Part shown: positions 1,367 to 27,947 of the stretch, one piece after another
How the letters are laid out: each line of letters begins with the position of its first letter
Position numbering within the stretch: position 1 is the first letter of the stretch
Origin: Komagataeibacter europaeus LMG 18890
Lineage (GTDB): Bacteria; Pseudomonadota; Alphaproteobacteria; Acetobacterales; Acetobacteraceae
Direction of reading: 5' to 3'
Assembly (NCBI RefSeq): GCF_000285295.1
Contig: NZ_CADP01000009.1
Span: forward strand, 34,737 to 79,031
Length of the DNA: 44,295 bases
Translations under genes and position numbers: made by a program
The notes under the pieces: model-generated
Databases searched by the model: none
What the model was told of the DNA's origin: nothing
Seen by the model: only the letters and a program-made list of their open reading frames with translations

Positions 1367-2446
1367 ATGCTGTTGGATTTTATGAAGCTGCAGAAACATG
1401 TATCCGGGATGGGGCGTCGGTCCTTTCTGTCCGTCATGGCGGCAGCAGGCAGCATTCCGCTTGTTTCCACGGCTGAAGCGGGCGACAGTACGCCGGTAAG
1501 CCAGCAGTGGGCCATTTTCCGCAGTAAATATTTCCGCCCCGATGGTCGTATCGTTGACACGGGGAACAGTGGCGAATCCCATAGCGAGGGGCAGGGCTAT
1601 GGCATGCTTTTCGCTGCCTCCGCGGGTGACCAGGCAGCGTTCGAGGCAATATGGGTGTGGGCGCGCACCAATCTCCAGCACAAGACCGATGCCCTGTTTT
1701 CCTGGCGCTATCTGGACGGGCATAATCCACCGGTCGCGGACAAGAACAACGCCACCGATGGCGATCTGCTGATTGCGCTTGGCCTGGCGCGGGCCGGCAA
1801 GCTTTGGAAGCGGGCTGACTATATTCAGGACGCTATGGCCATCTACGCCGATGTGCTTAAGCTCATGACCATGAAGGTCGGTCCTTACGAAGTGCTGTTG
1901 CCCGGCGCGACCGGATTCGTCACCAAGGAAGCGGTCACCCTTAACCTGTCCTATTACGTCATGCCCTCGCTCATGCAGGCGTTTGAACTGACGGCCGATG
2001 CCCGGTGGCAGACCGTAATGGAAAACGGGCTGCGCATTATTGCCCAGGGACGATTCGGGGAATGGAAGCTTCCGCCGGACTGGCTGTCGATCAATCGGCA
2101 GACCGGCGCTTTTTCAATTGCCAAGGGCTGGCCGCCACGTTTCTCCTATGATGCGATTCGCGTGCCGCTCTACCTGTACTGGGCGCATATGCTGTCGCCG
2201 GATTTGCTGGCGGATTTCACCCGTTTCTGGAACCATTTCGGCGCATCGGCGCTGCCGGGTTGGGTGGACCTGACAAATGGTTCGCGATCGCCCTATAATG
2301 CGCCTCCCGGCTATCTGGCCGTTGCGTCGTGTTCGGGTCTGGCATCGGCAGGGGAACTGCCCACGCTGGACCACGCGCCGGATTATTATTCCGCAGCGCT
2401 TACATTGCTGGTTTATATCGCCCGTGCCGAGGGAGGTGGGATGTGA
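1367..2446 (+). CDS. cmcAx: Endo-1,4-beta-glucanase CMCax, GH8 (BcsZ)
   Basis: This is the secreted GH8 endoglucanase of the acetic acid bacterial cellulose operon. It cuts beta-1,4-glucan and is needed for normal fibril assembly. The protein is 359 residues from this ATG. In-frame ATGs at 1382 and 1409 are also possible starts, since no strong ribosome site decides between them. The N-terminus GRRSFLSVMAAAGSIPL has a twin-arginine-like pair before a hydrophobic stretch and a processing region VSTAEAGD, so export may use Tat. Family motifs include GNSGESHSEGQG, with the likely general acid Glu at about residue 70, and DKNNATDGDLL with Asp about 131. The C-terminus is well conserved (LPTLDHAPDYYSAALTLLVY). 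Its stop codon overlaps the GTG start of ccpAx, indicating translational coupling. Confidence 0.95.
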   Translation: MLLDFMKLQKHVSGMGRRSFLSVMAAAGSIPLVSTAEAGDSTPVSQQWAIFRSKYFRPDGRIVDTGNSGESHSEGQGYGMLFAASAGDQAAFEAIWVWARTNLQHKTDALFSWRYLDGHNPPVADKNNATDGDLLIALGLARAGKLWKRADYIQDAMAIYADVLKLMTMKVGPYEVLLPGATGFVTKEAVTLNLSYYVMPSLMQAFELTADARWQTVMENGLRIIAQGRFGEWKLPPDWLSINRQTGAFSIAKGWPPRFSYDAIRVPLYLYWAHMLSPDLLADFTRFWNHFGASALPGWVDLTNGSRSPYNAPPGYLAVASCSGLASAGELPTLDHAPDYYSAALTLLVYIARAEGGGM

Positions 2447-3471
2447 GTTCAGCCAATAATGAAGCAGCAGGGGCGCAGCCACCTCGCCCTGACGTGGACA
2501 TGGACAATCCACAGGATGTGGCCCGTATGCTTACGGCTGGCTACGGTCTGAGCGGGGAAGGGTTCCATTACCGTTCCTTCCGCTCGCTCGTACGGGATAT
2601 GCCCGTGGCGGACCCGGAAGAGTCCGTCCATGAGGACATGCATGCCTACACCCAGGATCATTATGCCGAACCGGAACAGCCTGCTCCTGTCGCTGAGCCG
2701 GAACCTGTGGCGCCGCCGGTTGTAGCGTCTCCGCCGCCTGCACCGCCTCCGCCGCCAGTCGTGCCGGAAGTCGTGCATGCGCCCCGCCCGCCTGTGGCTG
2801 AAACGGTTGCGCCCGCCCCCGCGCCGCCGCCGGTCGCACCGGAAGTCGTGCATACGCCCCAGCCGCCTGTGGCCGAAACGGTTGCACCGCCCCCACCACC
2901 TCCTCCTCCGCCGCCGGAAACCGTGGTGCGTCCTGCGCCGCAGCCGAAACCTGTTGCTCCGGCAGCGGATGTGGTGCAGGCGGGTGGACAGGAACGACGT
3001 GGCCTGCCGCCATTTACCGAAGCGCCGGCCACCCCCGTGCGGCCACGTCCGGCGCCGGTGCAGTCAGCGCCCTTCACGGTTGAAGCGCCTGAACCGGTGG
3101 TTACCGCGACAGATGATTGGGCCCCCGTACCAAAGGCGCAGCAACGTCGTGGACAGCGCCCGACAGGGCCTGGATTCTTCTTCGCCAAGGCAGGTGACCG
3201 GACCCAGATGGCCCGGTTGTTCCAATCCCCTCCGGTGCCGACATCACCGCCTGTTCCCAAACCTGTTTCCAAGGTGACCACGATGACCAAACTAGACAAG
3301 AATACATGGAACAAGAGCGCGGGACGGCCGTCGGCCCCGACGGACAACTCCCCGACCCTGACGGAAGTCTTCATGACGCTGGGTGGACGGGCCACGGATC
3401 GTCTGATCCCCAAGCCCAGCCTGCGTGAAGCCCTGCTGCGCAAGCGCGAAGAAGAAAACGGGGAATCCTGA
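2443..3471 (+). CDS. ccpAx: Cellulose-complementing protein CcpAx
   Basis: This small acidic, proline-rich protein is restricted to Komagataeibacter and relatives. It is known to be required for cellulose production and to work with BcsD in arranging the terminal complex. The predicted start is GTG at 2443, overlapping the cmcAx stop, with a good GGGAGGTGGG site just upstream. This gives 342 residues, near the usual size of about 350. The N-terminal third is followed by a low-complexity Pro/Ala/Val region of about residues 75-170, with a 25-residue tandem duplication and runs of up to ten prolines. Conserved blocks near the C-terminus are GPGFFFAKAGDRTQMARLF and LTEVFMTLGGRAT, ending in SLREALLRKREEENGES. 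No signal peptide is seen, so it is cytoplasmic. Confidence 0.92.
   Translation: MSSANNEAAGAQPPRPDVDMDNPQDVARMLTAGYGLSGEGFHYRSFRSLVRDMPVADPEESVHEDMHAYTQDHYAEPEQPAPVAEPEPVAPPVVASPPPAPPPPPVVPEVVHAPRPPVAETVAPAPAPPPVAPEVVHTPQPPVAETVAPPPPPPPPPPETVVRPAPQPKPVAPAADVVQAGGQERRGLPPFTEAPATPVRPRPAPVQSAPFTVEAPEPVVTATDDWAPVPKAQQRRGQRPTGPGFFFAKAGDRTQMARLFQSPPVPTSPPVPKPVSKVTTMTKLDKNTWNKSAGRPSAPTDNSPTLTEVFMTLGGRATDRLIPKPSLREALLRKREEENGES
2752..2901 (+). repeat. 75-bp tandem duplication inside ccpAx
   Basis: Two adjacent 75-bp units (2752-2826 and 2827-2901) each encode a 25-residue block containing PEVVH, PPVAETVAP and a proline-rich tail. The units differ at only a few positions (HAPRPP versus HTPQPP). The unit length is a multiple of three, so the frame is kept. 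This makes the linker a likely length-variable part of CcpAx. Confidence 0.85.
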
Positions 3472-3563: not shown

Positions 3564-3658
3564 CCGAAAGGCGACATGACGGACCAGATGCGTCTGACGG
3601 TTTTCTTTTGAACGTAACTATCTGTTTTATCAGTATTTATTAATCGGACGAGTTATTG

Positions 3659-5896
3659 ATGTCAGAGGTTCAGTCGTCAGCGCCTGCGGAAAGTTGGTTT
3701 GGCCGCTTTTCCAACAAGATACTGTCACTGCGCGGTGCCAGTTACATAGTCGGGGCTGTGGGGCTTTTTGCCCTGCTCGCCGCCACTACAGTCACGCTGT
3801 CGATACATGAACAGTTGATTGTGGCATTAATATGTGTCGCAGTATTTTTCATCGTCGGCCGGCGTAAAAGCCGCCGCACACAGGTCTTTCTTGAGGTGCT
3901 TTCGGCGCTGGTGTCGTTGCGGTACCTGACATGGCGCCTGACGGAAACACTGGACTTCGATACGTGGATCCAGGGCCTGCTGGGTGTCACGCTGCTGCTG
4001 GCGGAACTGTACGCGCTGTACATGCTGTTCCTCAGTTATTTCCAGACCATATCCCCCCTGCATCGCGCGCCACTTCCCCTTTCGCCCAATCCGGACGAAT
4101 GGCCGACGGTCGATATCTTCATCCCGACATATGACGAGGACCTGAGCATCGTGCGCCTGACGGTGCTGGCGGCGCTTGGCATTGACTGGCCGCCCGAAAA
4201 GATGAACGTCTATATTCTGGATGATGGCAAGCGTGAGACATTCGGCCGTTTTGCCGAGGAATGTGGCGCGCGTTACATCACCCGTCCGGATAATACGCAT
4301 TACAAGGCCGGCAACCTTAATCACGCCATCAAGCAGACGAGGGGCGACTTCATCCTCATCCTTGACTGTGACCATATTCCGACGCGTGCATTCCTGCAGA
4401 TCGCGATGGGCTGGATGGTCGAGGATCCGAAGATCGCCCTGATGCAGACCCCGCATCACTTCTATTCCCCTGACCCGTTCCAGCGTAACCTGGCCGTGGG
4501 GTATCGCACCCCGCCGGAAGGCAACCTGTTCTACGGTGTCATTCAGGACGGCAACGACTTCTGGGATGCGACCTTCTTCTGCGGTTCGTGCGCCATCCTG
4601 CGCCGCAAGGCGATTGAGGAAATCGGCGGCTTCGCAACGGAAACCGTGACGGAAGATGCGCATACCGCGCTGCGCATGCAGCGCAAGGGCTGGTCGACCG
4701 CCTACCTGCGCATCCCCCTGGCCAGTGGCCTGGCGACCGAACGCCTTATCACGCATATCGGTCAGCGTATGCGCTGGGCCCGTGGCATGATCCAGATCTT
4801 CCGTGTTGATAACCCGATGCTGGGGCCGGGACTGAAGCTGGGGCAGCGGTTGTGCTACCTGTCAGCCATGACGTCGTTCTTCTTCGCCATTCCCCGCGTC
4901 ATCTTCCTGGCATCCCCGCTGGCCTTCCTGTTCTTCAACCAGAACATTATCGCCGCGTCGCCACTGGCGGTGCTGGCCTACGCCATTCCGCATATGTTCC
5001 ATTCGATTGCGACGGCGGCGAAGGTCAACAGGGGCTGGCGTTATTCGTTCTGGAGTGAAGTGTACGAAACCGTCATGGCGCTGTTCCTGGTGCGCGTGAC
5101 CATCGTGACGATGATATTCCCCTCCAAGGGCAAGTTCAACGTGACGGAAAAAGGCGGCGTTCTGGAAAACGAGACATTCGACCTTGACGCCACCTATCCG
5201 AACATCATCTTCGCTGTCGTCATGGCCCTTGGCCTGCTGCGCGGGGCATATGCGCTGATTTTCCAGCATCTGGACATCATTGCGGAACGTGCCTACGCGC
5301 TGAACTGCATCTGGTCGGTGATCAGCCTGATCATCCTGCTGGCCGCCATCGCCGTGGGCCGTGAAACCAAGCAGATCCGCCACAGCCACCGTATCGAAGC
5401 CCATATTCCCGTTACGGTTTATGATTACGAAGGCAATTCAAGCCACGGCATTACCGAGGACGTGTCCATGGGTGGTGTGGCGATCCATATGCCCTGGCGC
5501 GACGTGACGCCGGATCAGCCTGTACAGGTTGTGGTGCATGCGATACTGGAGGGCGAGGAAGTCAACCTTCCGGCCACCATGATCCGCAGCGCCAACGGCA
5601 AGGCCGTGTTTACATGGTCGATCAATAACATTCAGATTGAAGCATCTGTGGTCCGGTTCGTGTTCGGACGTGCCGATGCCTGGCTGCAGTGGAATAATTA
5701 TGAGGATGACCGGCCGTTACGAAGCCTGTGGAGTCTGATCCTCAGCATCAAGGCACTGTTCCGCAAGAAGGGTCAGATGATTGCCCATAGTCGTCCCAAG
5801 AAAAAACCAATTGCACTGCCGGTTGAGCGTCGGGAGCCAACAACCAGTCAGGGTGGTCAGAAACAGGAAGGAAAGATCAGTCGTGCGGCCTCGTGA
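3659..5896 (+). CDS. bcsA: Cellulose synthase catalytic subunit BcsA (UDP-forming)
   Basis: An inner-membrane GT2 glycosyltransferase that polymerises UDP-glucose into beta-1,4-glucan and threads it across the membrane with BcsB. It is activated by cyclic di-GMP. The protein is 745 residues from ATG 3659; a TTG immediately before it is a less likely start. The complete catalytic set is present: FIPTYDED at about residue 155, LDDG at about 186, the DxD motif in LDCDHIP at about 236, the catalytic TED at about 331, and QRMRW at 369-373. Transmembrane helices flank the GT domain. The C-terminal PilZ domain carries RHSHR (from about 574) and DVSMGG (from about 601), the c-di-GMP signature. The C-terminal tail [18 protein letters not shown] is typical of the Komagataeibacter enzyme. 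BcsA and BcsB are separate here, whereas some strains carry a fused bcsAB. No defect is seen. Confidence 0.97.
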
Positions 5897-5897
5897 T

Positions 5898-8249
5898 ATG
5901 AAAATGGTGTCCCTGATCGCGCTACTGGTCTTTGCAACGGGAGCACAGGCTGCCCCGATTGCATCCAAGGCGCCAGCCCCCCAGCCGACGGGTAACGACC
6001 TGCCTCCCTTGCCTGCCGCCGCCCCTGCAGGGGACGCGGGCAGCAATGCTGATGCGATACTGGACAACGCCGAAAATGCGACCGGCGCCAGTTCCGATGT
6101 CGCGACCGTTCATACCTATTCCCTGCAGGAACTGGGTGCGGCAGGCGCGTTGACCATGCGGGGTACGGCACCGCTGCAGGGCCTGCAGTTCGGCATCCCG
6201 GCGGACCAGCTGGTGACGTCGGCCCGTCTGGTGGTGTCGGGTGCGATGTCGCCCAACCTCCAGCCTGACAACAGTGCGGTCACGATCACACTGAATGAAC
6301 AGTATATCGGTACGCTGCGCCCCGATCCGTCGCACCCGGCGTTTGGTCCGCTGTCATTTGACGTCAACCCCATCTTCTTTGTCAGCGGCAACCGCCTGAA
6401 TTTCAGCTTTGCCACCGGATCGAAGGGATGCACGGACCCGTCCAACGGGCTGCAGTGGGCCAGCGTGTCCGAACATTCACAACTGCAGATCACAACCATT
6501 CCGCTTCCCCCCCGGCGCCAGTTGGCTCGACTGCCCCAGCCTTTCTTTGACAAGACTGTAAGGCAGAAAGTGGTCATTCCGTTTGTTCTTGCACAGACAT
6601 TTGATCCCGAGGTGCTCAAGGCTTCCGGCATCATTGCGTCATGGTTCGGGCAGCAGACCGATTACCGCGGGGTCAATTTCCCCGTCTTTTCCACCATTCC
6701 CCAGACAGGCAACGCCATTGTGGTCGGTGTGGCGGATGAACTGCCATCCGCATTGGGGCGGCCTTCGGTCAGTGGCCCGACCCTGATGGAGGTCGCCAAT
6801 CCGTCCGATCCCAATGGCACCCTGCTGCTGGTGACCGGGCGTGACCGCGATGAAGTCATTACGGCGAGCAAGGGGATCGGTTTCGGTTCCAGTGCCCTGC
6901 CGGTCGCCAGCCGCATGGACGTGGCGCCGATCGACGTGGCGCCGCGTGTCGCAAATGATGCGCCATCCTTCCTGCCCACCACCCGCCCGGTCCGGCTGGG
7001 TGAACTGGTGCCTGTCAGCGCATTGCAGGGGGAAGGCTATACGCCGGGTGTCCTGTCGGTTCCCTTCCGCGTGTCCCCCGACCTGTATACCTGGCGTGAC
7101 CGGCCGTACAAGCTGAACGTGCGTTTCCGCGCGCCGGATGGTCCGATCCTGGATGTCGCGCGTTCCCATCTGGATGTCGGTATCAATAACACCTACCTGC
7201 AGTCCTATTCACTGCGGGAGCAGAATTCCGTTGTGGACCAGCTTCTGCGCCGTGTTGGCGTGGGCACGCAGAACGCAGGCGTGGAACAGCATACGCTGAC
7301 CATTCCGCCGTGGATGGTGTTCGGTCAGGATCAGCTGCAGTTCTACTTTGACGCAGCTCCGCTGACGGAGCCCGGCTGTCGCCCCGGGCCAAGCCTGATC
7401 CACATGTCGGTCGACCCGGATTCAACCATCGACCTGTCCAACGCCTATCATATCACGCGCATGCCCAACCTGGCTTACATGGCCAGCGCGGGGTATCCGT
7501 TCACCACCTATGCCGATCTGTCGCGTTCGGCCGTGGTGCTGCCGGATCATCCCAATGGCACGGTGGTCAGCGCCTATCTCGACCTGATGGGCTTCATGGG
7601 GGCGACGACCTGGTATCCCGTGTCGGGTGTCGATATCGTTTCGGCCGATCATGTAAGCGACGTGGCGGACCGGAACCTGATCGTCCTGTCCACCCTGTCG
7701 AACAGTGGGGAAGTCTCCTCGCTGCTGTCCAACTCGGCTTACCAGATTTCGGACGGGCGGCTGCACATGGGGCTGCGTTCCACCCTCAGCGGGGTGTGGA
7801 ACATCTTCCAGGACCCGATGTCGGTCATCAGCAATACCCATCCGACCGAGGTCGAAACGACCTTGACCGGTGGTGTCGGCGCGATGGTGGAAGCGGAATC
7901 CCCGCTGGCATCCGGGCGCACGGTGCTGGCCCTGCTGTCGGGTGACGGACAGGGGCTGGATAACCTGGTCCAGATCCTGGGCCAGCGTAAGAATCAGGCA
8001 AAAGTGCAGGGCGACCTTGTGCTGGCGCATGGCGACGACCTGACATCCTACCGCAGTTCACCGCTTTATACGGTTGGCACGCTGCCGATGTGGCTCATGC
8101 CTGACTGGTATATGCACAATCATCCGATCCGTGTGGTTGTGGTCGGCCTGTTCGGTTGTCTGCTGGTGGTGGCCGTCCTGGTGCGCGCACTGTTCCGCCA
8201 CGCGATGTACCGTCGCCGGCAGCTGCAGGAAGAAAGGCAGAAATCGTGA
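5898..8249 (+). CDS. bcsB: Cellulose synthase periplasmic subunit BcsB
   Basis: BcsB is anchored in the inner membrane and guides the nascent glucan through the periplasm. Its C-terminal helix packs on BcsA and is needed for activity. The reading frame runs upstream into bcsA, but ATG 5898 (one base after the bcsA stop) gives a clean signal peptide, [18 protein letters not shown] followed by AP, and 783 residues, close to the usual 800. The mature part is the expected series of carbohydrate-binding and flavodoxin-like domains. The C-terminal membrane helix is at about residues 742-765 ([18 protein letters not shown]), followed by a basic tail [12 protein letters not shown]. The gene is intact. 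bcsC begins 2 bases after its stop. Confidence 0.96.
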
Positions 8250-8338
8250 TCATGAGTAGACGATACGTCTTTTCACTTTCTGCCGGGCTGCTTGCCAGCA
8301 GCTGCATGGGGGTGATGATGGCTGTGCCGGTAGCCCGT

Positions 8339-8350
8339 GCACAGAGCAGG
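8339..8350 (+). other. Frameshift 1 in bcsC: AG duplication at the signal-peptide junction
   Basis: The sequence gcacagagcagg contains AG twice. Removing one AG joins the signal-peptide frame (ARAQ) directly to the mature frame (QASTAMTGAQ), which is the junction expected in this family. The shifted frame ends in TGA 8363-8365, which overlaps ATG 8362 as ATGA. Ribosomes could therefore re-initiate and make cytoplasmic BcsC without its signal. Confidence 0.85.
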
Positions 8351-11300
8351 CATCAACTGCCATGACGGGGGCGCAGGCCACCGGCGGGACTGCCGCGCCA
8401 CGGCAGATCCTGCTGCAGCAGGCACGCTTCTGGTTGCAGCAGCAGCAGTATGACAATGCCCGGCAGGCATTGCAGAACGCGCAGCGGATCGCGCCTGACT
8501 CTCCCGACGTGCTGGAGGTTCAGGGTGAATACCAGACGGCCATCGGCAACCGTGAAGCCGCAGCCGACACCCTGCGTCACCTGCAGCAGGTTGCACCGGG
8601 CAGTACGGCGGCAAACAGCCTGACCGACCTGCTGCATGAACGGTCAATCTCGACGGGCGACCTGTCGCAGGTGCGCGCCCTTGCCGCTTCTGGCCATAAC
8701 GAGCAGGCCGTGGCCGGGTACCAGAAGCTGTTCAATGGCGGAAAGCCACCCCATTCGCTGGCGGTGGAATATTACCAGACCATGGCTGGCGTGCCCGCCG
8801 ACTGGGATCAGGCACGGGCGGGACTGGCCAGCGTCGTGGCGGCTAATCCGCAGGATTACCGTGCCCAGCTCGCCTTTGCGCAGGCACTGACCTATAATAC
8901 CCCCACCCGTATGGAAGGTCTGGCGCGACTGAAGGACCTGGAGGGTTTCCGGGCCCAGGCGCCGGTTGAAGCCGCGGCGGCAGCCCAGTCCTATCGACAG
9001 ACACTGAACTGGCTGCCGGTCACGCCTGAGACGCAGCCGCTCATGCAGCAGTGGTTGGCGGCGCATCCCAATGATACGGCGCTGAAGGAACACATGCTTC
9101 ACCCCCCTGGTGGTCCGCCGGACAAGGCGGGCCTTGCACGCCAGGCAGGTTACCAGCAGCTGAACGCCGGTCGTCTTTCCGCAGCCGAGCAGTCCTTCCA
9201 GTCCGCACTGCAGATCAATGCGCATGATGCGGATTCGCTGGGCGGCATGGGTCTGGTCAGCATGCGTCAGGGCGATGCGGCGGAAGCGCGTCGTTATTTC
9301 CAGGAAGCGATGGCCGCCGATCCCAAGACGGCTGACCGCTGGCGTCCCGCGCTGGCCGGCATGGAAATCAGCGGTGACTATGCCGCCGTGCGGCAGATGA
9401 TCGCGGCGCATCAATATACCGAAGCCAAGCAGCGCCTGACGTCGCTGGCGCGTCAGCCGGGGCAGTTCACTGGCGCCACGCTGATGCTGGCGGACCTGCA
9501 GCGCACGACCGGGCAGATCGATGCGTCCGAACAGTCATATCGTTCCGTTCTCGCGCGCGATCCCAACAGTCAGCTGGCCCTGATGGGGCTGGCGCGGGTG
9601 GACATGGCGCAGGGCAATACGGCGGAAGCGCGTCAGCTGCTGTCACGCGTCGGACCACAATACGCCGAGCAGGTGGGCGAGATCGAGGTGACGGGCCTGA
9701 TGGCCGCGGCCTCGCACACATCGGATTCGGCACGCAAGGTATCCATCCTGCGTGAAGCCATGACGCAGGCGCCGCGCGATCCGTGGGTGCGCATCAACCT
9801 CGCCAATGCCCTGCAGCAGCAGGGTGACGTGGCGGAAGCCGGCCGTGTCATGCAGCCGATCCTGGCCAATCCGGTTACGGCGCAGGATCGTCAGGCAGGC
9901 ATCCTGTACACTTATGGCGCCGGCAACGATGCGGCGACCCGCCGCCTGCTGTCCGGGCTGTCGCCAGAGGATTATTCCCCGGCCATCCGTTCCATCGCCA
10001 CCGAAATGGAGATCAAGGAAGACCTGGCCAGCCGCCTGTCGATGGTGGCCAACCCGGTGCCCTTGATCCGGGAAGCCCTGTCCCCGCCTGACCCGACGGG
10101 TGCGCGTGGCGTGGCCGTGGCCGACCTGTTCCGCCAGCGCGGCGACATGCTCCATGCCCGCATGGCGCTGCGTATCGCCTCGACACGTACGATCGACCTG
10201 TCGCCGGACCAGCGTCTTGCCTACGCCACCGAGTATATGAAGATCAGCAACCCGGTTGCCGCCGCCCGCCTGCTTGCGCCCCTTGGCGATGGCAGCGGGA
10301 GCGGCATGGGCAATGCCCTGCCACCGGAACAGCAGCAGACCCTGCAGCAGTTGCGCATGGGCATTTCCGTGGCCCAGTCCGACCTGCTGAACCAGCGTGG
10401 CGATCAGGCGCAGGCGTACGATCAGCTGGCCCCCGCGTTGCGGGCGGATCCGGAGGCGACGGCGCCCAAACTGGCGCTGGCCCGTCTGTACAATGGTGAA
10501 GGCAAGGCAAGCAAGGCGCTGGAAATCGACCTTGCGGTGCTGCGCCACAATCCACAGGATCTCGATGCCCGGCAGGCTGCGGTGCAGGCTGCGGTCAATA
10601 GCGGTCACAAGAGCCTGGCGACCCGTCTGGCGATGGATGGCGTGCAGGAAAGCCCGATGGATGCCCGCGCATGGCTGAGCATGGCCGTGGCCGACCAGGC
10701 GGACGGACATGGCCACCGGACCATCGCGGACCTGCGCCGGGCCTACGACCTGCGCCTGCAGCAGGTCGAGGGATCCCGCATGGCGGCGGGCGCGGGTGCT
10801 GCCGGGGCCGAGCAGGATGCGCTTGCGCCGCCGTCCAGCAATCCCTTCCGCCACCATGGCTATGGTCGGCAGACGGAACTGGGCGCGCCGGTCACCGGTG
10901 GATCCTACAGCATGGAAGCGACCTCGCCCGAGGCATCGGACCAGATGCTGTCTTCCATTTCCGGGCAGATCAACACGCTGCGTGAAAACCTTGCCCCGTC
11001 CATTGACGGTGGCCTCGGGTTCCGGTCGCGTTCGGGCGAACACGGCATGGGTCGCCTGACGGAAGCCAATATCCCCATTGTCGGCCGTCTGCCGCTACAG
11101 GCGGGTGAGTCCAGCCTGACCTTCTCGATCACGCCAACCATGATCTGGTCGGGTGATCTTGATAGTGGTTCAGTCTATGACGTGCCCCGGTTTGGCACCG
11201 ACATGGCGACACAGGCGTGGAACCAGTACGTCAATTACATGAACCGCAACAACCAGGGTTCCACCAGCCGTTACAAATCCCAGCTTGTAAAGGGTGGGGA

Positions 11301-12115
11301 AGGCGAAGCCGGCTTTGCACCTGATGTACAGTTCGGCAATAGCTGGGTGCGGGCCGATGTCGGTGCGTCACCGATCGGCTTCCCCATCACCAACGTGCTG
11401 GGTGGGGTCGAGTTCTCGCCACGTGTCGGGCCTGTGACATTCCGCGTCAGCGCCGAACGCCGTTCGATTACCAACAGCGTCCTGTCCTATGGCGGCATGC
11501 GTGATCCGAACTACTATTCCGCCATCGGGCGCTATGCCCGCAGCCTGTACGGCAAGGAACTGGCCTCGCAGTGGAGCCAGGAATGGGGTGGCGTCGTCAC
11601 CAACCATTTCCATGGCCAGGTCGAGGCGACGCTGGGCAATACCATCGTGTATGGTGGCGGTGGCTATGCGATCCAGACCGGCAAGAACGTGCGGCGCAAC
11701 AGCGAGCGTGAAGCCGGCATCGGCGTCAATACGCTGGTGTGGCATAACGCCAACATGCTGGTGCGGATCGGTGTCAGCCTGACCTACTTCGGTTATGGGA
11801 ACAACCAGGATTTCTATACCTACGGACAGGGTGGCTACTTCTCGCCACAGTCCTATTACGCGGCCACCGTTCCGATCCGTTATGCCGGCCAGCACAAGCG
11901 GCTTGACTGGGACGTGAATGCTTCCGTGGGCTATCAGGTCTTCCACGAACATTCGTCGCCGTTCTTCCCCACGTCTTCGCTGCTGCAGTCGGGTGCGCAG
12001 TATGTGGCTAATAATTACGTGACGAATGCGACAAGTTCTGATTATCTCTCACAGGAAACGGTAAATAGCGCCTATTATCCCGGGGACAGTGTTGCTAGTC
12101 TTACGGGTGGCTTTA

Positions 12116-12128
12116 ATGCTAGGGTATC
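12116..12128 (+). other. Frameshift 2 in bcsC: small indel before the last barrel strands
   Basis: The first frame reads GGFNARVSVYP and stops. The frame starting at 12125 reads YRFTHNLRLDLSGRW and continues to the family C-terminus. Joining after GGFNAR requires a net loss whose length is 2 modulo 3. It would be 5 bases if the ancestor read ARVGYRF. No homopolymer is present at the site. Confidence 0.82.
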
Positions 12129-12237
12129 GGTTTACCCATAATCTTCGTCTTGATCTGTCGGGGCGCTGGCAGAAGGCCGGTAACTGGACTGAAAGCGGCG
12201 CCATGATTTCCGCACACTATCTTATTATGGACCAGTA

Positions 12238-12708
12238 ATGACAACTTTCAACGCAAAACCGGACTTCTCGCTTTTTCTGCAGGCCCTGTCATGGGAAATT
12301 GACGATCAGGCCGGGATCGAGGTCAGGAATGACCTGTTGCGGGAGGTCGGCCGCGGAATGGCTGGTCGTCTGCAGCCGCCCCTGTGCAACACCATCCACC
12401 AGTTGCAGATCGAACTGAATGCCCTGCTGGGCATGATCAACTGGGGCTATGTGAAGCTGGAACTGCTGGCGGAAGAGCAGGCCATGCGCATCGTGCATGA
12501 AGACCTGCCGCAGGTCGGCAGCGCGGGTGAGCCGTCGGGCACATGGCTGGCCCCGGTGCTGGAAGGCCTGTATGGCCGCTGGATCACGTCGCAGCCCGGT
12601 GCGTTTGGTGATTATGTTGTCAGCCGCGACGTCGATGCGGAAGACCTGAACTCCGTCCCGACCCAGACTGTCATTCTGTACATGCGCACCCGCAGCAACA
12701 GCAACTGA
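12238..12708 (+). CDS. bcsD: Cellulose synthase subunit D (BcsD)
   Basis: BcsD forms a periplasmic ring-like octamer that groups glucan chains into ordered ribbons and is typical of Komagataeibacter-type operons. The 156-residue protein has the usual length and family blocks near its start (LQALSWEIDDQAGIEVR) and in the middle (ALLGMINWGYVKLEL), plus the C-terminal QTVILYMRTRS. The ATG overlaps the last base of the true bcsC stop (TAATG), so its translation was probably coupled to bcsC. With bcsC frameshifted, ribosomes now terminate about 100 bases upstream, which may lower BcsD synthesis. A hairpin terminator follows. Confidence 0.96.
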   Translation: MTTFNAKPDFSLFLQALSWEIDDQAGIEVRNDLLREVGRGMAGRLQPPLCNTIHQLQIELNALLGMINWGYVKLELLAEEQAMRIVHEDLPQVGSAGEPSGTWLAPVLEGLYGRWITSQPGAFGDYVVSRDVDAEDLNSVPTQTVILYMRTRSNSN

Positions 12709-12930: not shown

Positions 12931-15135
12931 ATGAAATTGTCCCGCAAGATATTCCTGCTGTCTGCCGTGGCGTGCAGCATGATGGTGGCGCACGGTGCCG
13001 CGCATGCCCATGCCGCGAAAGGCCCGACCGACCCGGCGGATGAAAGGGCGCGGCAGGTACTCGCGCATATGAGCCTGCAAGACAAGATGTCCCTGCTGTT
13101 CAGCGTGGATGGCGGCGGGTTCAATGGCAGTGTCGCCCCTCCGGGCGGGCTTGGCTCGGCGGCGTACCTGCGCGCGCCTGCGGGGTCGGGCCTGCCTGAC
13201 CTGCAGATTTCCGATGCGGGGCTTGGTATCCGTAATCCGGCGCATATCCGCAAGGATGGTGCGGCGGTTTCCCTGCCATCGGGCCTGTCCACCGCCAGTT
13301 CGTGGGATGTGGACATGGCGCGTGAGGCCGGGGCCATGATCGGTCGTGAAGCGTGGCAGAGCGGTTTCAACGTCCTGCTGGGCGGTGGGGCCGACCTGAC
13401 CCGTGACCCGCGCGGTGGCCGCAATTTCGAATATGCGGGCGAGGATCCGCTGCAGACTGGCCGCATGGTCGGCAGCACCATTGCGGGCGTGCAGTCACAG
13501 CACGTGATTTCCACCCTCAAGCATTATGCGATGAATGACCTTGAAACATCGCGCATGACCATGAGTGCCGATATCGACCACGTCGCCATGCGCGAAAGCG
13601 ACCTGCTGGGGTTCGAGATCGCCATGGAAACCGGGCACCCCGGTTCCGTCATGTGTTCGTATAACCGCGTCAATGACCTGTATGCGTGCGAAAACCCGTA
13701 CCTGCTGACCAGGACGATGAAGCAGGACTGGCATTATCCCGGCTTCGTCATGTCCGACTGGGGCGCGACCCATTCCTCCGCTCGTGCGGCGCTGGCCGGG
13801 CTGGACCAGGAATCCGCGGGGGACCATGCCGATGCACGCCCCTATTTCCAGACGCTGCTGGCGGCGGATGTGAAGGCAGGCCGTGTGCCGCAGTCGCGTA
13901 TTGATGACATGGCGCAGCGGATTGTCCGCTCCCTGTTCGCGCAGGGGCTGGTTGACCATCCGCCCGTGCGGGCCCCGCTGGATGTGGTGACCGATACCCT
14001 TGTCGCCCAGCGTGATGAGGAAGAAGGCGCGGTTCTGCTGCGTAACGAGGGCAATGTCCTGCCGCTTGCCACCACCGCCCGCATCGCGGTCATTGGTGGC
14101 CATGCGGATGTGGGCGTGATTTCGGGGGGCGGTTCCAGTCAGGTCGATCCCATCGGGGGCGAAGTGGTCAAGGGACCGGGCAAGAAGGACTGGCCGGGCG
14201 ATCCGGTGTATTTCCCGTCTTCCCCGCTCAGGGCCATGCGGGCCGAAGCCCCGGCCGCCCATATCACCTATGATCCGGGCACGAATATCGCCGCCGCCGT
14301 CCGTGCCGCCCGCGCGGCCGATGTGGCCGTCGTGTATGCAACGCAGTTCACCTTTGAGGGGATGGACGCGCCGAACATGCACCTTGATGGCAATGCCGAT
14401 GCCCTGATTGCCGCTGTCGCCGCCGCCAACCCGCACACTGTCGTGGTCATGGAAACCGGCGACCCGGTGCTGATGCCGTGGAACAGCAGCGTAGCGGGCG
14501 TGCTGGAGGCATGGTTCCCCGGTTCCGGCGGTGGGACCGCCCTCGCCCGGCTGCTGTTTGGCAAGGTCGCGCCATCGGGTCATCTGACCATGACCTTCCC
14601 GCAGGCTGAATCCCAGCTGGCCCATCCCGATATCGCGGGCGTGAACGCGAACAACGTGTTCGAAATGCAGTTCCACACCGATCAGGAACTGGTTTACGAC
14701 GAAGGCAGCGATGTCGGTTACCGCTGGTTCGACCGCAATCACCTCAAGCCGCTCTATCCGTTCGGCCATGGCCTGACCTACACCACCTTTGCGACCGATG
14801 GGCTGGTGGCGGGGTATCACCACAAGCAGCTGACGGTGACGTTCAACGTGCGCAACACCGGCACGCGTCCCGGCGTGGACGTGCCGCAGGTCTATGTCGG
14901 CCTGCCCGATGGGGGGGCGCGCAGGCTGGCGGGCTGGCAGCGCGTGAAGCTGGCGCCGGGTGAAAGCCGTCAGGTCTCGGTGCAGGTTGATCCGCGGCTG
15001 CTGGCTCATTTTGATGGCAGGCATGACCGGTGGGACATCCCTTCGGGCCGCTTCCGGGTCTGGCTGGGTACGTCAGCCGTGGATGACAGCCAGCAGGTTA
15101 CGGTGCATGTGCATGGGCGGACCATGGCGCCGTGA
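12931..15135 (+). CDS. bglX: Beta-glucosidase BglX/BglAx, GH3
   Basis: A periplasmic or secreted GH3 enzyme that hydrolyses cello-oligosaccharides and gentiobiose, and the usual last member of the cellulose cluster. ATG 12931 is preceded by a strong AAGGAGG at about 12914 and gives a signal peptide (MKLSRKIFLLSAVACSMMVAHG, with A-rich cleavage near AHA). Length is 734 residues, normal for GH3 with a C-terminal fibronectin-III-like domain. Motifs are DPRGGRNFEYAGEDP (substrate arginine and glutamate), LKHYAMND with Lys-His at 197-198, and VMSDWGA with nucleophile Asp at about 276. The second domain carries GGHADVGVISGGGSSQV, and the last ~110 residues form the FN3-like domain. A terminator separates it from bcsD. 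The next gene overlaps its stop. Confidence 0.95.
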   Translation: MKLSRKIFLLSAVACSMMVAHGAAHAHAAKGPTDPADERARQVLAHMSLQDKMSLLFSVDGGGFNGSVAPPGGLGSAAYLRAPAGSGLPDLQISDAGLGIRNPAHIRKDGAAVSLPSGLSTASSWDVDMAREAGAMIGREAWQSGFNVLLGGGADLTRDPRGGRNFEYAGEDPLQTGRMVGSTIAGVQSQHVISTLKHYAMNDLETSRMTMSADIDHVAMRESDLLGFEIAMETGHPGSVMCSYNRVNDLYACENPYLLTRTMKQDWHYPGFVMSDWGATHSSARAALAGLDQESAGDHADARPYFQTLLAADVKAGRVPQSRIDDMAQRIVRSLFAQGLVDHPPVRAPLDVVTDTLVAQRDEEEGAVLLRNEGNVLPLATTARIAVIGGHADVGVISGGGSSQVDPIGGEVVKGPGKKDWPGDPVYFPSSPLRAMRAEAPAAHITYDPGTNIAAAVRAARAADVAVVYATQFTFEGMDAPNMHLDGNADALIAAVAAANPHTVVVMETGDPVLMPWNSSVAGVLEAWFPGSGGGTALARLLFGKVAPSGHLTMTFPQAESQLAHPDIAGVNANNVFEMQFHTDQELVYDEGSDVGYRWFDRNHLKPLYPFGHGLTYTTFATDGLVAGYHHKQLTVTFNVRNTGTRPGVDVPQVYVGLPDGGARRLAGWQRVKLAPGESRQVSVQVDPRLLAHFDGRHDRWDIPSGRFRVWLGTSAVDDSQQVTVHVHGRTMAP

Positions 15136-26141: not shown

Positions 26142-27947
26142 ATGTCAGACAGTCTGTTCGTCCGTTACCTTACGCATGTGCGCGCAGCACTGGGCCGGAT
26201 CGTGCCCGACCTGCCGCCTGCGCTGCTGGACCGGGTGGAGGTCACGCCCACCCGTGATCCGGCCCATGGCGACCTTGCGACCAATGCGGCCCTGGTCGTA
26301 TCCAAGGCCGCGCGGCGTCGCCCGGCGGAAATCGCGGGCGAGTTGGTGACGGCGCTGGCGGATGTGCCCGGCATCGCCCATGCGGAGGTGGCCGGCCCCG
26401 GTTTCGTCAACATGCGCCTGGCCCCCGCCGTGTGGCAGGGCGTGGCGCGCAGCGTGCTGGAGACGGGGGAGGATTACGGCACCAGCACCGCCGGGAACGG
26501 AGTGAAGGTGAACGTGGAATACGTATCCGCCAACCCCACCGGCCCGATGCATGTGGGCCATTGCCGTGGGGCGGTTGTGGGTGACGTGCTGGCCAACCTG
26601 CTGATCAAGGCGGGTTACGAGGTCACCAAGGAATATTACATCAACGACGCCGGCGCGCAGGTCATCGCCCTGGCCTGGGCGACTTACTGGCGCTACCTGC
26701 AGGCGCTGGGCACCACCGTGACCGAGGAAGAATTCGCCGCCGTCGTGCCCGGTGGCGCGATCCAGTATGGTGGCGACTATCTGGTCCCGGTAGGCGAGGC
26801 GCTGGCCCGCAGGTTTGCCGACAGCCTCGCCGCTCCCGGCCTGAAACCCGCCGATCCCGCCCTGTGGCTGGATACGGTGAAGCGTGAGGCGGTCGATACC
26901 ATGATGGCCATGATCCGCGAGGATCTTGCGGCCCTTGGCGTGCATCATGATGTCTTCACCAGCGAGGCCGGGATACTGGCCGATGGCGAAACCGACCGCG
27001 CCATCGCGCAGCTGGAAAAGAAGGGCCTGATCTACGAAGGCGTGCTGGAGCCGCCCAAGGGCAAGCTGCCCGATGACTGGGAAGCCCGGCCGCAGACGCT
27101 GTTCCGCTCCACCGAATTCGGGGATGACGTGGACCGTCCGCTGCGCAAGTCCGATGGATCGAACACCTATTTCGCCAACGACATCGGCTATCATGCCGAC
27201 AAGATCCGCCGGGGCGCGGATGTGCTGGTGGACGTATGGGGTGCTGACCATGGCGGCTATGTCACCCGCATGAAGGCGGCGGTCGCGGCGCTGGCGACGG
27301 ACGGCCGGCCGGTGCTGGATGTGCTGCTATGCCAGATCGTGCGCATCGTGCGCGACGGGCAGCCGGTGCGCATGTCCAAGCGCGCGGGAACCTTCGTCAC
27401 CCTGCGCGACCTGATTGATGAGGTCGGGCGCGACGCCGTGCGCTTCACCATGCTGACCCGCAAGGCCGATGCGCAGATGGAATTCGATCTGGATCAGGTC
27501 GTGGCGCAGAGCCGCGACAACCCCGTCTTCTACGTGCAATACGCCCATGCGCGCTGCTGTTCCGTGCTGCGGTCGGCGGCAGGCATGGTCAATGACGGCA
27601 GGATCACGGGTGGCATCACGCCCGCGGAACTGGCGGGCGTGGATCTGTCGGGCCTGACGGCGGATGCGGAACTGGCGCTGCTGCAGCGCATGGCGCAGTG
27701 GCCGCGCATGGTCGAATCGGCGGCGGCCGCGCATGAACCGCACCGCATTGCCTTTTACCTGAATGAACTGGCGTCGGATTTCCATGCGCTGTGGAACCGG
27801 GGGCGCGATGATGCGACCCTGCGCTTCCTGCAGGAAGATGATATTGCCGCCACCCGCATGAAGCTTGCCCTTGTCGAGGCAACGGCAACCGTGCTGCGAT
27901 CGGGTATGAAAGTGCTCGGCGTACAGCCGGTCGAGGAGATGCGATGA
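26142..27947 (+). CDS. argS: Arginyl-tRNA synthetase
   Basis: A class I synthetase of 601 residues. The N-terminal Add-1 domain is followed by NVEYVSANPTGPMHVGHCRG, where HVGH is the HIGH motif, KEYYINDAGAQ, and the KMSKS equivalent VRMSKRAGTFVTL. The C-terminal DALR anticodon domain ends in MKVLGVQPVEEMR. Its stop overlaps the start of the SPOR gene (ATGA), opening the compact argS-to-serS cluster. Confidence 0.97.
   Translation: MSDSLFVRYLTHVRAALGRIVPDLPPALLDRVEVTPTRDPAHGDLATNAALVVSKAARRRPAEIAGELVTALADVPGIAHAEVAGPGFVNMRLAPAVWQGVARSVLETGEDYGTSTAGNGVKVNVEYVSANPTGPMHVGHCRGAVVGDVLANLLIKAGYEVTKEYYINDAGAQVIALAWATYWRYLQALGTTVTEEEFAAVVPGGAIQYGGDYLVPVGEALARRFADSLAAPGLKPADPALWLDTVKREAVDTMMAMIREDLAALGVHHDVFTSEAGILADGETDRAIAQLEKKGLIYEGVLEPPKGKLPDDWEARPQTLFRSTEFGDDVDRPLRKSDGSNTYFANDIGYHADKIRRGADVLVDVWGADHGGYVTRMKAAVAALATDGRPVLDVLLCQIVRIVRDGQPVRMSKRAGTFVTLRDLIDEVGRDAVRFTMLTRKADAQMEFDLDQVVAQSRDNPVFYVQYAHARCCSVLRSAAGMVNDGRITGGITPAELAGVDLSGLTADAELALLQRMAQWPRMVESAAAAHEPHRIAFYLNELASDFHALWNRGRDDATLRFLQEDDIAATRMKLALVEATATVLRSGMKVLGVQPVEEMR

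Follow-up and report, generated by a model that had tools for sequence, protein, structure and literature searches.

The question raised by this locus is whether the type-I cellulose operon of Komagataeibacter europaeus LMG 18890 still encodes a working BcsC exporter and, if it does not, how and how long ago the exporter was lost. The analysed window (44,295 nt of contig NZ_CADP01000009.1, free of N) contains the operon in the order cmcAx-ccpAx-bcsA-bcsB-bcsC-bcsD-bglX, with the Pfam domains expected for the type-I bcs operon of the genus. A first-pass annotation, made from the letters alone, had placed two independent frameshifts in bcsC. We consider it very probable that the type-I bcsC (bcsC1) was recently inactivated, in a natural cellulose-negative vinegar strain, by slippage at tandem repeats.

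Two lesions in bcsC of the type-I operon

The operon and its lesions have the following layout (window coordinates; the basis of each assignment is given in parentheses).

1367..2446, + strand: cmcAx (GH8), full length (Pfam, alignment to K. diospyri)
2329..3471, + strand: ccpAx ORF (CBP_CCPA), full length, true start probably further in (Pfam, alignment)
3656..5896, + strand: bcsA (Glycos_transf_2 and PilZ), full length (Pfam, alignment)
5898..8249, + strand: bcsB (BcsB), full length (Pfam, alignment)
8252..8365, + strand: ORF of the bcsC1 signal peptide, in a different frame from the remainder (translation, ortholog comparison)
8343..8346, + strand: site 1, tandem AGAG, +2 nt (versus 15/15 orthologs)
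8362..12141, + strand: bcsC1 remainder (TPR and barrel), 1259 aa, without signal peptide, barrel truncated (translation, Pfam)
12119..12124 (about), + strand: site 2, -5 nt, single AGGGT (versus 15/15 orthologs)
12139..12141, + strand: premature TAA (translation)
12238..12708, + strand: bcsD (Cellsynth_D), full length (Pfam, alignment)
12931..15135, + strand: bglX (GH3), full length (Pfam, alignment)

The annotation had called all genes of the operon except bcsC intact, and this holds: cmcAx, ccpAx, bcsA, bcsB, bcsD, and bglX each gave one unbroken full-length alignment to K. diospyri, and bcsA, bcsB, bcsD, and bglX were likewise unbroken against K. swingsii, whose locus ends inside cmcAx. The N-terminal part of bcsB (about 5990-6060) is shorter than in the relatives owing to in-frame indels.

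Close bcsC orthologs (86-98% identity) were found in 15 of 18 other genomes of the genus, the remaining three having only matches of ~34%. Fourteen of the 15 are intact from the conserved ATG (1318-1335 aa, C-terminus YLIMDQ). Relative to 15/15 orthologs, the AGAG at 8343-8346 contains two additional nucleotides in the form of a tandem AG. Translation from the ATG at 8252 yields 37 aa and ends at the TGA at 8363-8365, which overlaps the ATG at 8362 as ATGA. The duplicated AG thus cuts the signal peptide from mature BcsC, as annotated, and the in-frame signal peptide required of a functional exporter is absent from bcsC1. BcsC without a signal peptide should remain cytoplasmic.

At the second site, the nearest orthologs have AGGGTAGGGT, a tandem AGGGT pair, of which the window keeps one copy; the loss of 5 nt again sets it apart from 15/15 orthologs. 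The annotated loss of the barrel end is real, while its extent was put at 37 residues and comparison with the sister protein gives 38, replaced by SVYP. The BCSC_C barrel profile (336 positions) is aligned over 2-274 here against 2-335 in the sister, and over 2-291 in a six-frame search of the genome; the complete C-terminal barrel that a functional exporter requires is therefore missing, and the equally required TPR region is present. A search of solved structures matched BcsC structures, but the alignments stop short of the lost C-terminal residues. BcsC that lacks C-terminal barrel residues should fail in outer-membrane assembly. Between the two sites, the 1259 codons from the ATG at 8362 are open, with no in-frame stop. 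Both lesions are unique among the 16 aligned bcsC1 sequences, their annotated positions were right, and, as had also been stated, neither lies on a single-base homopolymer, both being situated on tandem repeats.

The second lesion may extend to the next gene. In 16/16 aligned sequences, the original bcsC stop and the ATG of bcsD overlap as TAATG (12236-12240 in the window). With the premature stop placed 96 nt before this junction, ribosomes that complete bcsC probably fail to reach the bcsD start, and translation of bcsD may drop. The third positions of the last 37 original bcsC codons (window region 12125-12250) are nearly invariant, with a mean pairwise identity of 0.94 among 12 Komagataeibacter sequences, some of them conspecific, and with 22 consecutive invariant positions; none of 3490 windows of the same size in bcsA, bcsB, bcsC, bcsD, and bglX reaches this value (maximum 0.888). 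No RNA structure was found at the bcsC-bcsD junction (z +0.84), and two promoter-like sites occur on the minus strand at 12251-12216. The end of bcsC and the start of bcsD possibly hold a hidden cis element or a signal coupling bcsD.

The second BcsC and the repeat signature of the indels

The annotation had proposed a search for further bcs operons that could compensate. A profile search of the genome (E 0.001) matched BCSC_C twice and BcsB three times. The second BcsC belongs to operon II:

L044 13858-17939 (G000:C321:283858-287939), - strand: bcsC2, in two parts owing to a 31-nt deletion at 13-nt direct repeats

The deletion separates a 751-aa TPR part from a 601-aa barrel part and was observed in none of 12 aligned rows from 11 other genomes. 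The adjacent type-II synthase gene is unbroken (a single 1523-aa match). The third BcsB is located at G000:C282:2115-3938, and the same search found no third BcsC to accompany it. With one of the two BCSC_C matches truncated in the barrel and the other cut from its TPR half, no intact BcsC was found in the assembly.

All three indels have a repeat context. The 5-nt deletion has 7 nt of homology, and in the sister gene 1.07% of deletions of this size have five or more; for the 31-nt deletion, the homology amounts to 13 nt, a length not exceeded at any of 3940 places. The +2 duplicates its neighboring AG in tandem, but 16.6% of inserts would do so at random, and taken alone it is a weak slippage signature. 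Judged from these sequence contexts, slippage or repeat-mediated deletion is the simplest cause for all three lesions.

Assembly errors, old decay, or a switch

An origin of the indels in sequencing or assembly was the alternative offered by the annotation. To its credit are the draft state of the assembly (321 contigs) and the N-filled gaps in two nearby genes. We compared 179 kb of the 4.23-Mb genome (the whole of contig C313, on which the window occupies 34737-79031, and 100 kb of C321) with relatives. Of 154 reference ORFs, 104 passed the thresholds of 75% identity and 80% coverage and 50 were dropped; two main references account for 85 comparisons (50 on C313 and 35 on C321; 84 distinct places; 36,676 aa), and two further references for the other 19 rows, which add three distinct places. 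Among the 85 comparisons, clean frameshifts were observed exclusively in bcsC1 and bcsC2, which make up 7% of the residues. Seven of the 104 rows were split: one for bcsC1, three for bcsC2 (against three references), and three others, which are explained by two N-filled gaps and one doubtful ORF (protein identity of 84%, below the DNA identity of 94%). The N-filled scaffold gaps interrupt two genes that precede the window and are conserved apart from the gaps (L057, about 10731-10738; L058, about C313:31846-31870). Restricted to the window, 28 of 29 reference ORFs had a match, and one additional row was split, at a one-base difference that precedes the start codon of the gene at 26142 and does not fall within the gene itself. 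The survey can miss frameshifts close to gene ends, and it is not unbiased, since the stretches were picked for holding bcsC; even so, the confinement of clean frameshifts to the two bcsC genes is evidence against random assembly error. Because, in addition, the +2, -5, and -31 indels all lie on tandem or direct repeats, unlike single-base homopolymer slips, and with the strain itself being listed as cellulose-negative, we regard assembly error as quite improbable.

The annotation had also taken the presence of two hits in one gene as a sign of relaxed selection. Were bcsC1 a long-standing pseudogene, the second lesion would be neutral decay; such a history differs from the recent inactivation favored here in age and does not exclude it, and the likelihoods that we attach to the alternatives are not mutually exclusive. 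The two lesions in bcsC1 and the further one in its paralog bcsC2 speak for it, as does the N/S of bcsC, which is higher for the window branch, at 13/49, than for the sister branch, at 6/57 (p = 0.086, Fisher test). However, the intact neighbors bcsA, bcsB, bcsD, and bglX are looser on the window branch too, with 36 N and 88 S changes versus 18 and 117 on the sister branch (p = 0.002). Within the window branch, bcsC is tighter than the neighbors (13 N and 49 S changes versus 36 and 88; p = 0.29, Fisher test), and hence its amino-acid changes are no faster than theirs. In bglX, nine of 16 N changes are clustered in codons 714-732; with these nine removed, the neighbors have 27/88, which gives p = 0.047 against the sister branch and p = 0.85 against bcsC. 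Taking the neutral N:S of bcsC as 2.2-2.8, the share of the branch during which bcsC was neutral is at most about 13-16% if the sister ratio is used and 2-3% with the ratio of the neighbors. The N/S raised relative to the neighbors that would be expected of an old pseudogene was thus not found, and 1259 codons remain without an in-frame stop. We consider long-standing decay improbable. The comparison of changes indicates that the two lesions are no sign of long decay and that bcsC broke recently; the second lesion was possibly acquired because re-initiation at the ATGA made the first one leaky.

The remaining alternative is a reversible, contingency-type switch, with slippage at bcsC toggling export. 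The window AGAG is tandem, and a parallel lesion exists in another species: in K. oboediens LMG 18849 (L005), also listed as cellulose-negative and from submerged vinegar (PMC7347698, Table 1), bcsC1 has independently lost 1 nt at its 5' end, in the signal peptide and close to the corresponding window site, and translation stops after 36 aa. The -1 in this strain and the +2 in LMG 18890 bring the leader into one and the same frame, which closes at the identical ATGA overlap; a start there could still yield a mature but cytoplasmic BcsC in both. The bcsC2 matches of LMG 18849 come in pieces. A K. oboediens bcsCI frameshift is moreover described as yielding revertants in static culture (PMC7347698), but these are compensatory indels at other bases; the repeats are two-copy only, just one copy is left after the -5 lesion, and slippage cannot restore the 31 nt lost from bcsC2. 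A toggling switch is hence very improbable. Hardly more credit is due to the broader proposal that vinegar lineages repeatedly and specifically disable BcsC, the signal-peptide junction included, while keeping the synthase, with the junction as an export-off state reversible by a further small indel. By comparison, bcsC1 is intact in K. swingsii LMG 22125, K. diospyri MSKU 9, K. intermedius TF2, K. rhaeticus LMG 22126, and K. nataicola LMG 1536, all cellulose-positive in Table 1 of PMC7347698, while for TF2 cellulose is given as not determined in PMC6528568.

Published strains, phenotype, and significance

The core of this finding is already known: published passages on these strains report the loss of 5 bp, the disruption of bcsCII, and recurrent hits in bcsC. 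Table 3 of PMC7347698 gives LMG 18890 a 5-bp deletion and LMG 18494 a 1900-bp deletion in bcsCI, both strains being without cellulose; section 3.4.6 of PMC6528568 describes bcsCII of LMG 18890 as disrupted, and PMC8855687 names the two strains as non-producers with impaired bcsBI or bcsCI. The bcs operons of LMG 18890 are called similar to those of the producer GH1 in PMC7561693, where no lesion is mentioned. The reported deletion and disruption almost certainly concern the same gene and assembly as the window, and the 5-bp deletion probably does not verify the bases independently, because its source cites the paper of the same assembly. The passages on LMG 18890 in PMC7347698 and PMC6528568 mention neither the +2 nor the size or repeat basis of the bcsCII deletion. 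Likewise, the relevant passages of PMC6528568, PMC13068021, PMC7347698, PMC8855687, PMC4879726, PMC8970348, and PMC7561693 do not name the +2 or the lesion of K. oboediens LMG 18849; Matsutani 2015, cited for these strains, may have them.

The closest cases are the large bcsCI deletions of LMG 18494 and NBRC 3261, in the same gene of the same species. LMG 18494 differs in the extent of its deletion (1900 bp), and both strains lack operon II (PMC6528568); cellulose is lacking in LMG 18494 according to PMC7347698 and not determined in PMC6528568, which gives NBRC 3261, too, as not determined. K. oboediens E3, derived from MSKU 3 (Taweecheep 2019, via PMC7347698), likewise lost cellulose through a small bcsCI indel, but this one is of laboratory origin, lies at gene position 2135, and was reverted by nearby indels. 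In agitated cultures of K. intermedius ENS15, deletions, a duplication, and frameshifts recurred in bcsC upon cellulose loss, affecting the gene in all three agitated flasks (PMC13068021); these come from experimental population sequencing and lie at other bcsC sites. K. medellinensis NBRC 3288 is also a vinegar strain without cellulose and with one frameshifted subunit, but there it is bcsBI, not bcsC (PMC7347698).

For LMG 18890, PMC6528568 lists cellulose as "-", and Table 1 of PMC7347698 likewise has the strain as cellulose-negative, giving its source as a German submerged vinegar generator. With bcsC broken, the rest of the operon present, and this phenotype in print, the strain has the features of a spontaneous cellulose-negative bcsC mutant. 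The claim of the first-pass annotation that the operon makes no exported cellulose is accordingly well supported as to the loss itself, by the listed phenotype and by the break in the only other BcsC found; that the bcsC lesions are its cause is what we infer. Other lesions, for example in pgm, in galU, or in regulators of cellulose production, may contribute.

The course of events proposed here would begin with replication slippage at the tandem AG (+2) and at the tandem AGGGT pair (-5), producing two frame breaks. The one at site 1 parts the signal peptide from the mature protein, and ATGA re-initiation would give a cytoplasmic BcsC at best; the one at site 2 takes off the 38 C-terminal barrel residues and, because bcsC originally ended on the start codon of bcsD, probably uncouples bcsD translation. 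The second BcsC was lost through the deletion of 31 nt between 13-nt repeats, leaving a genome that keeps its synthase genes with no intact exporter found. Such a loss may have been favored or tolerated in submerged vinegar culture.

These results provide a likely cause, at the level of individual lesions, for the cellulose-negative phenotype of the type strain, and replace the idea of long decay with that of a recent break, both BcsC copies having been found broken. One likely lesion is added for K. oboediens LMG 18849, and simple loci are named for checking in industrial strains. Together with the published cases, they support the view already in print that BcsC export is readily lost in these bacteria.
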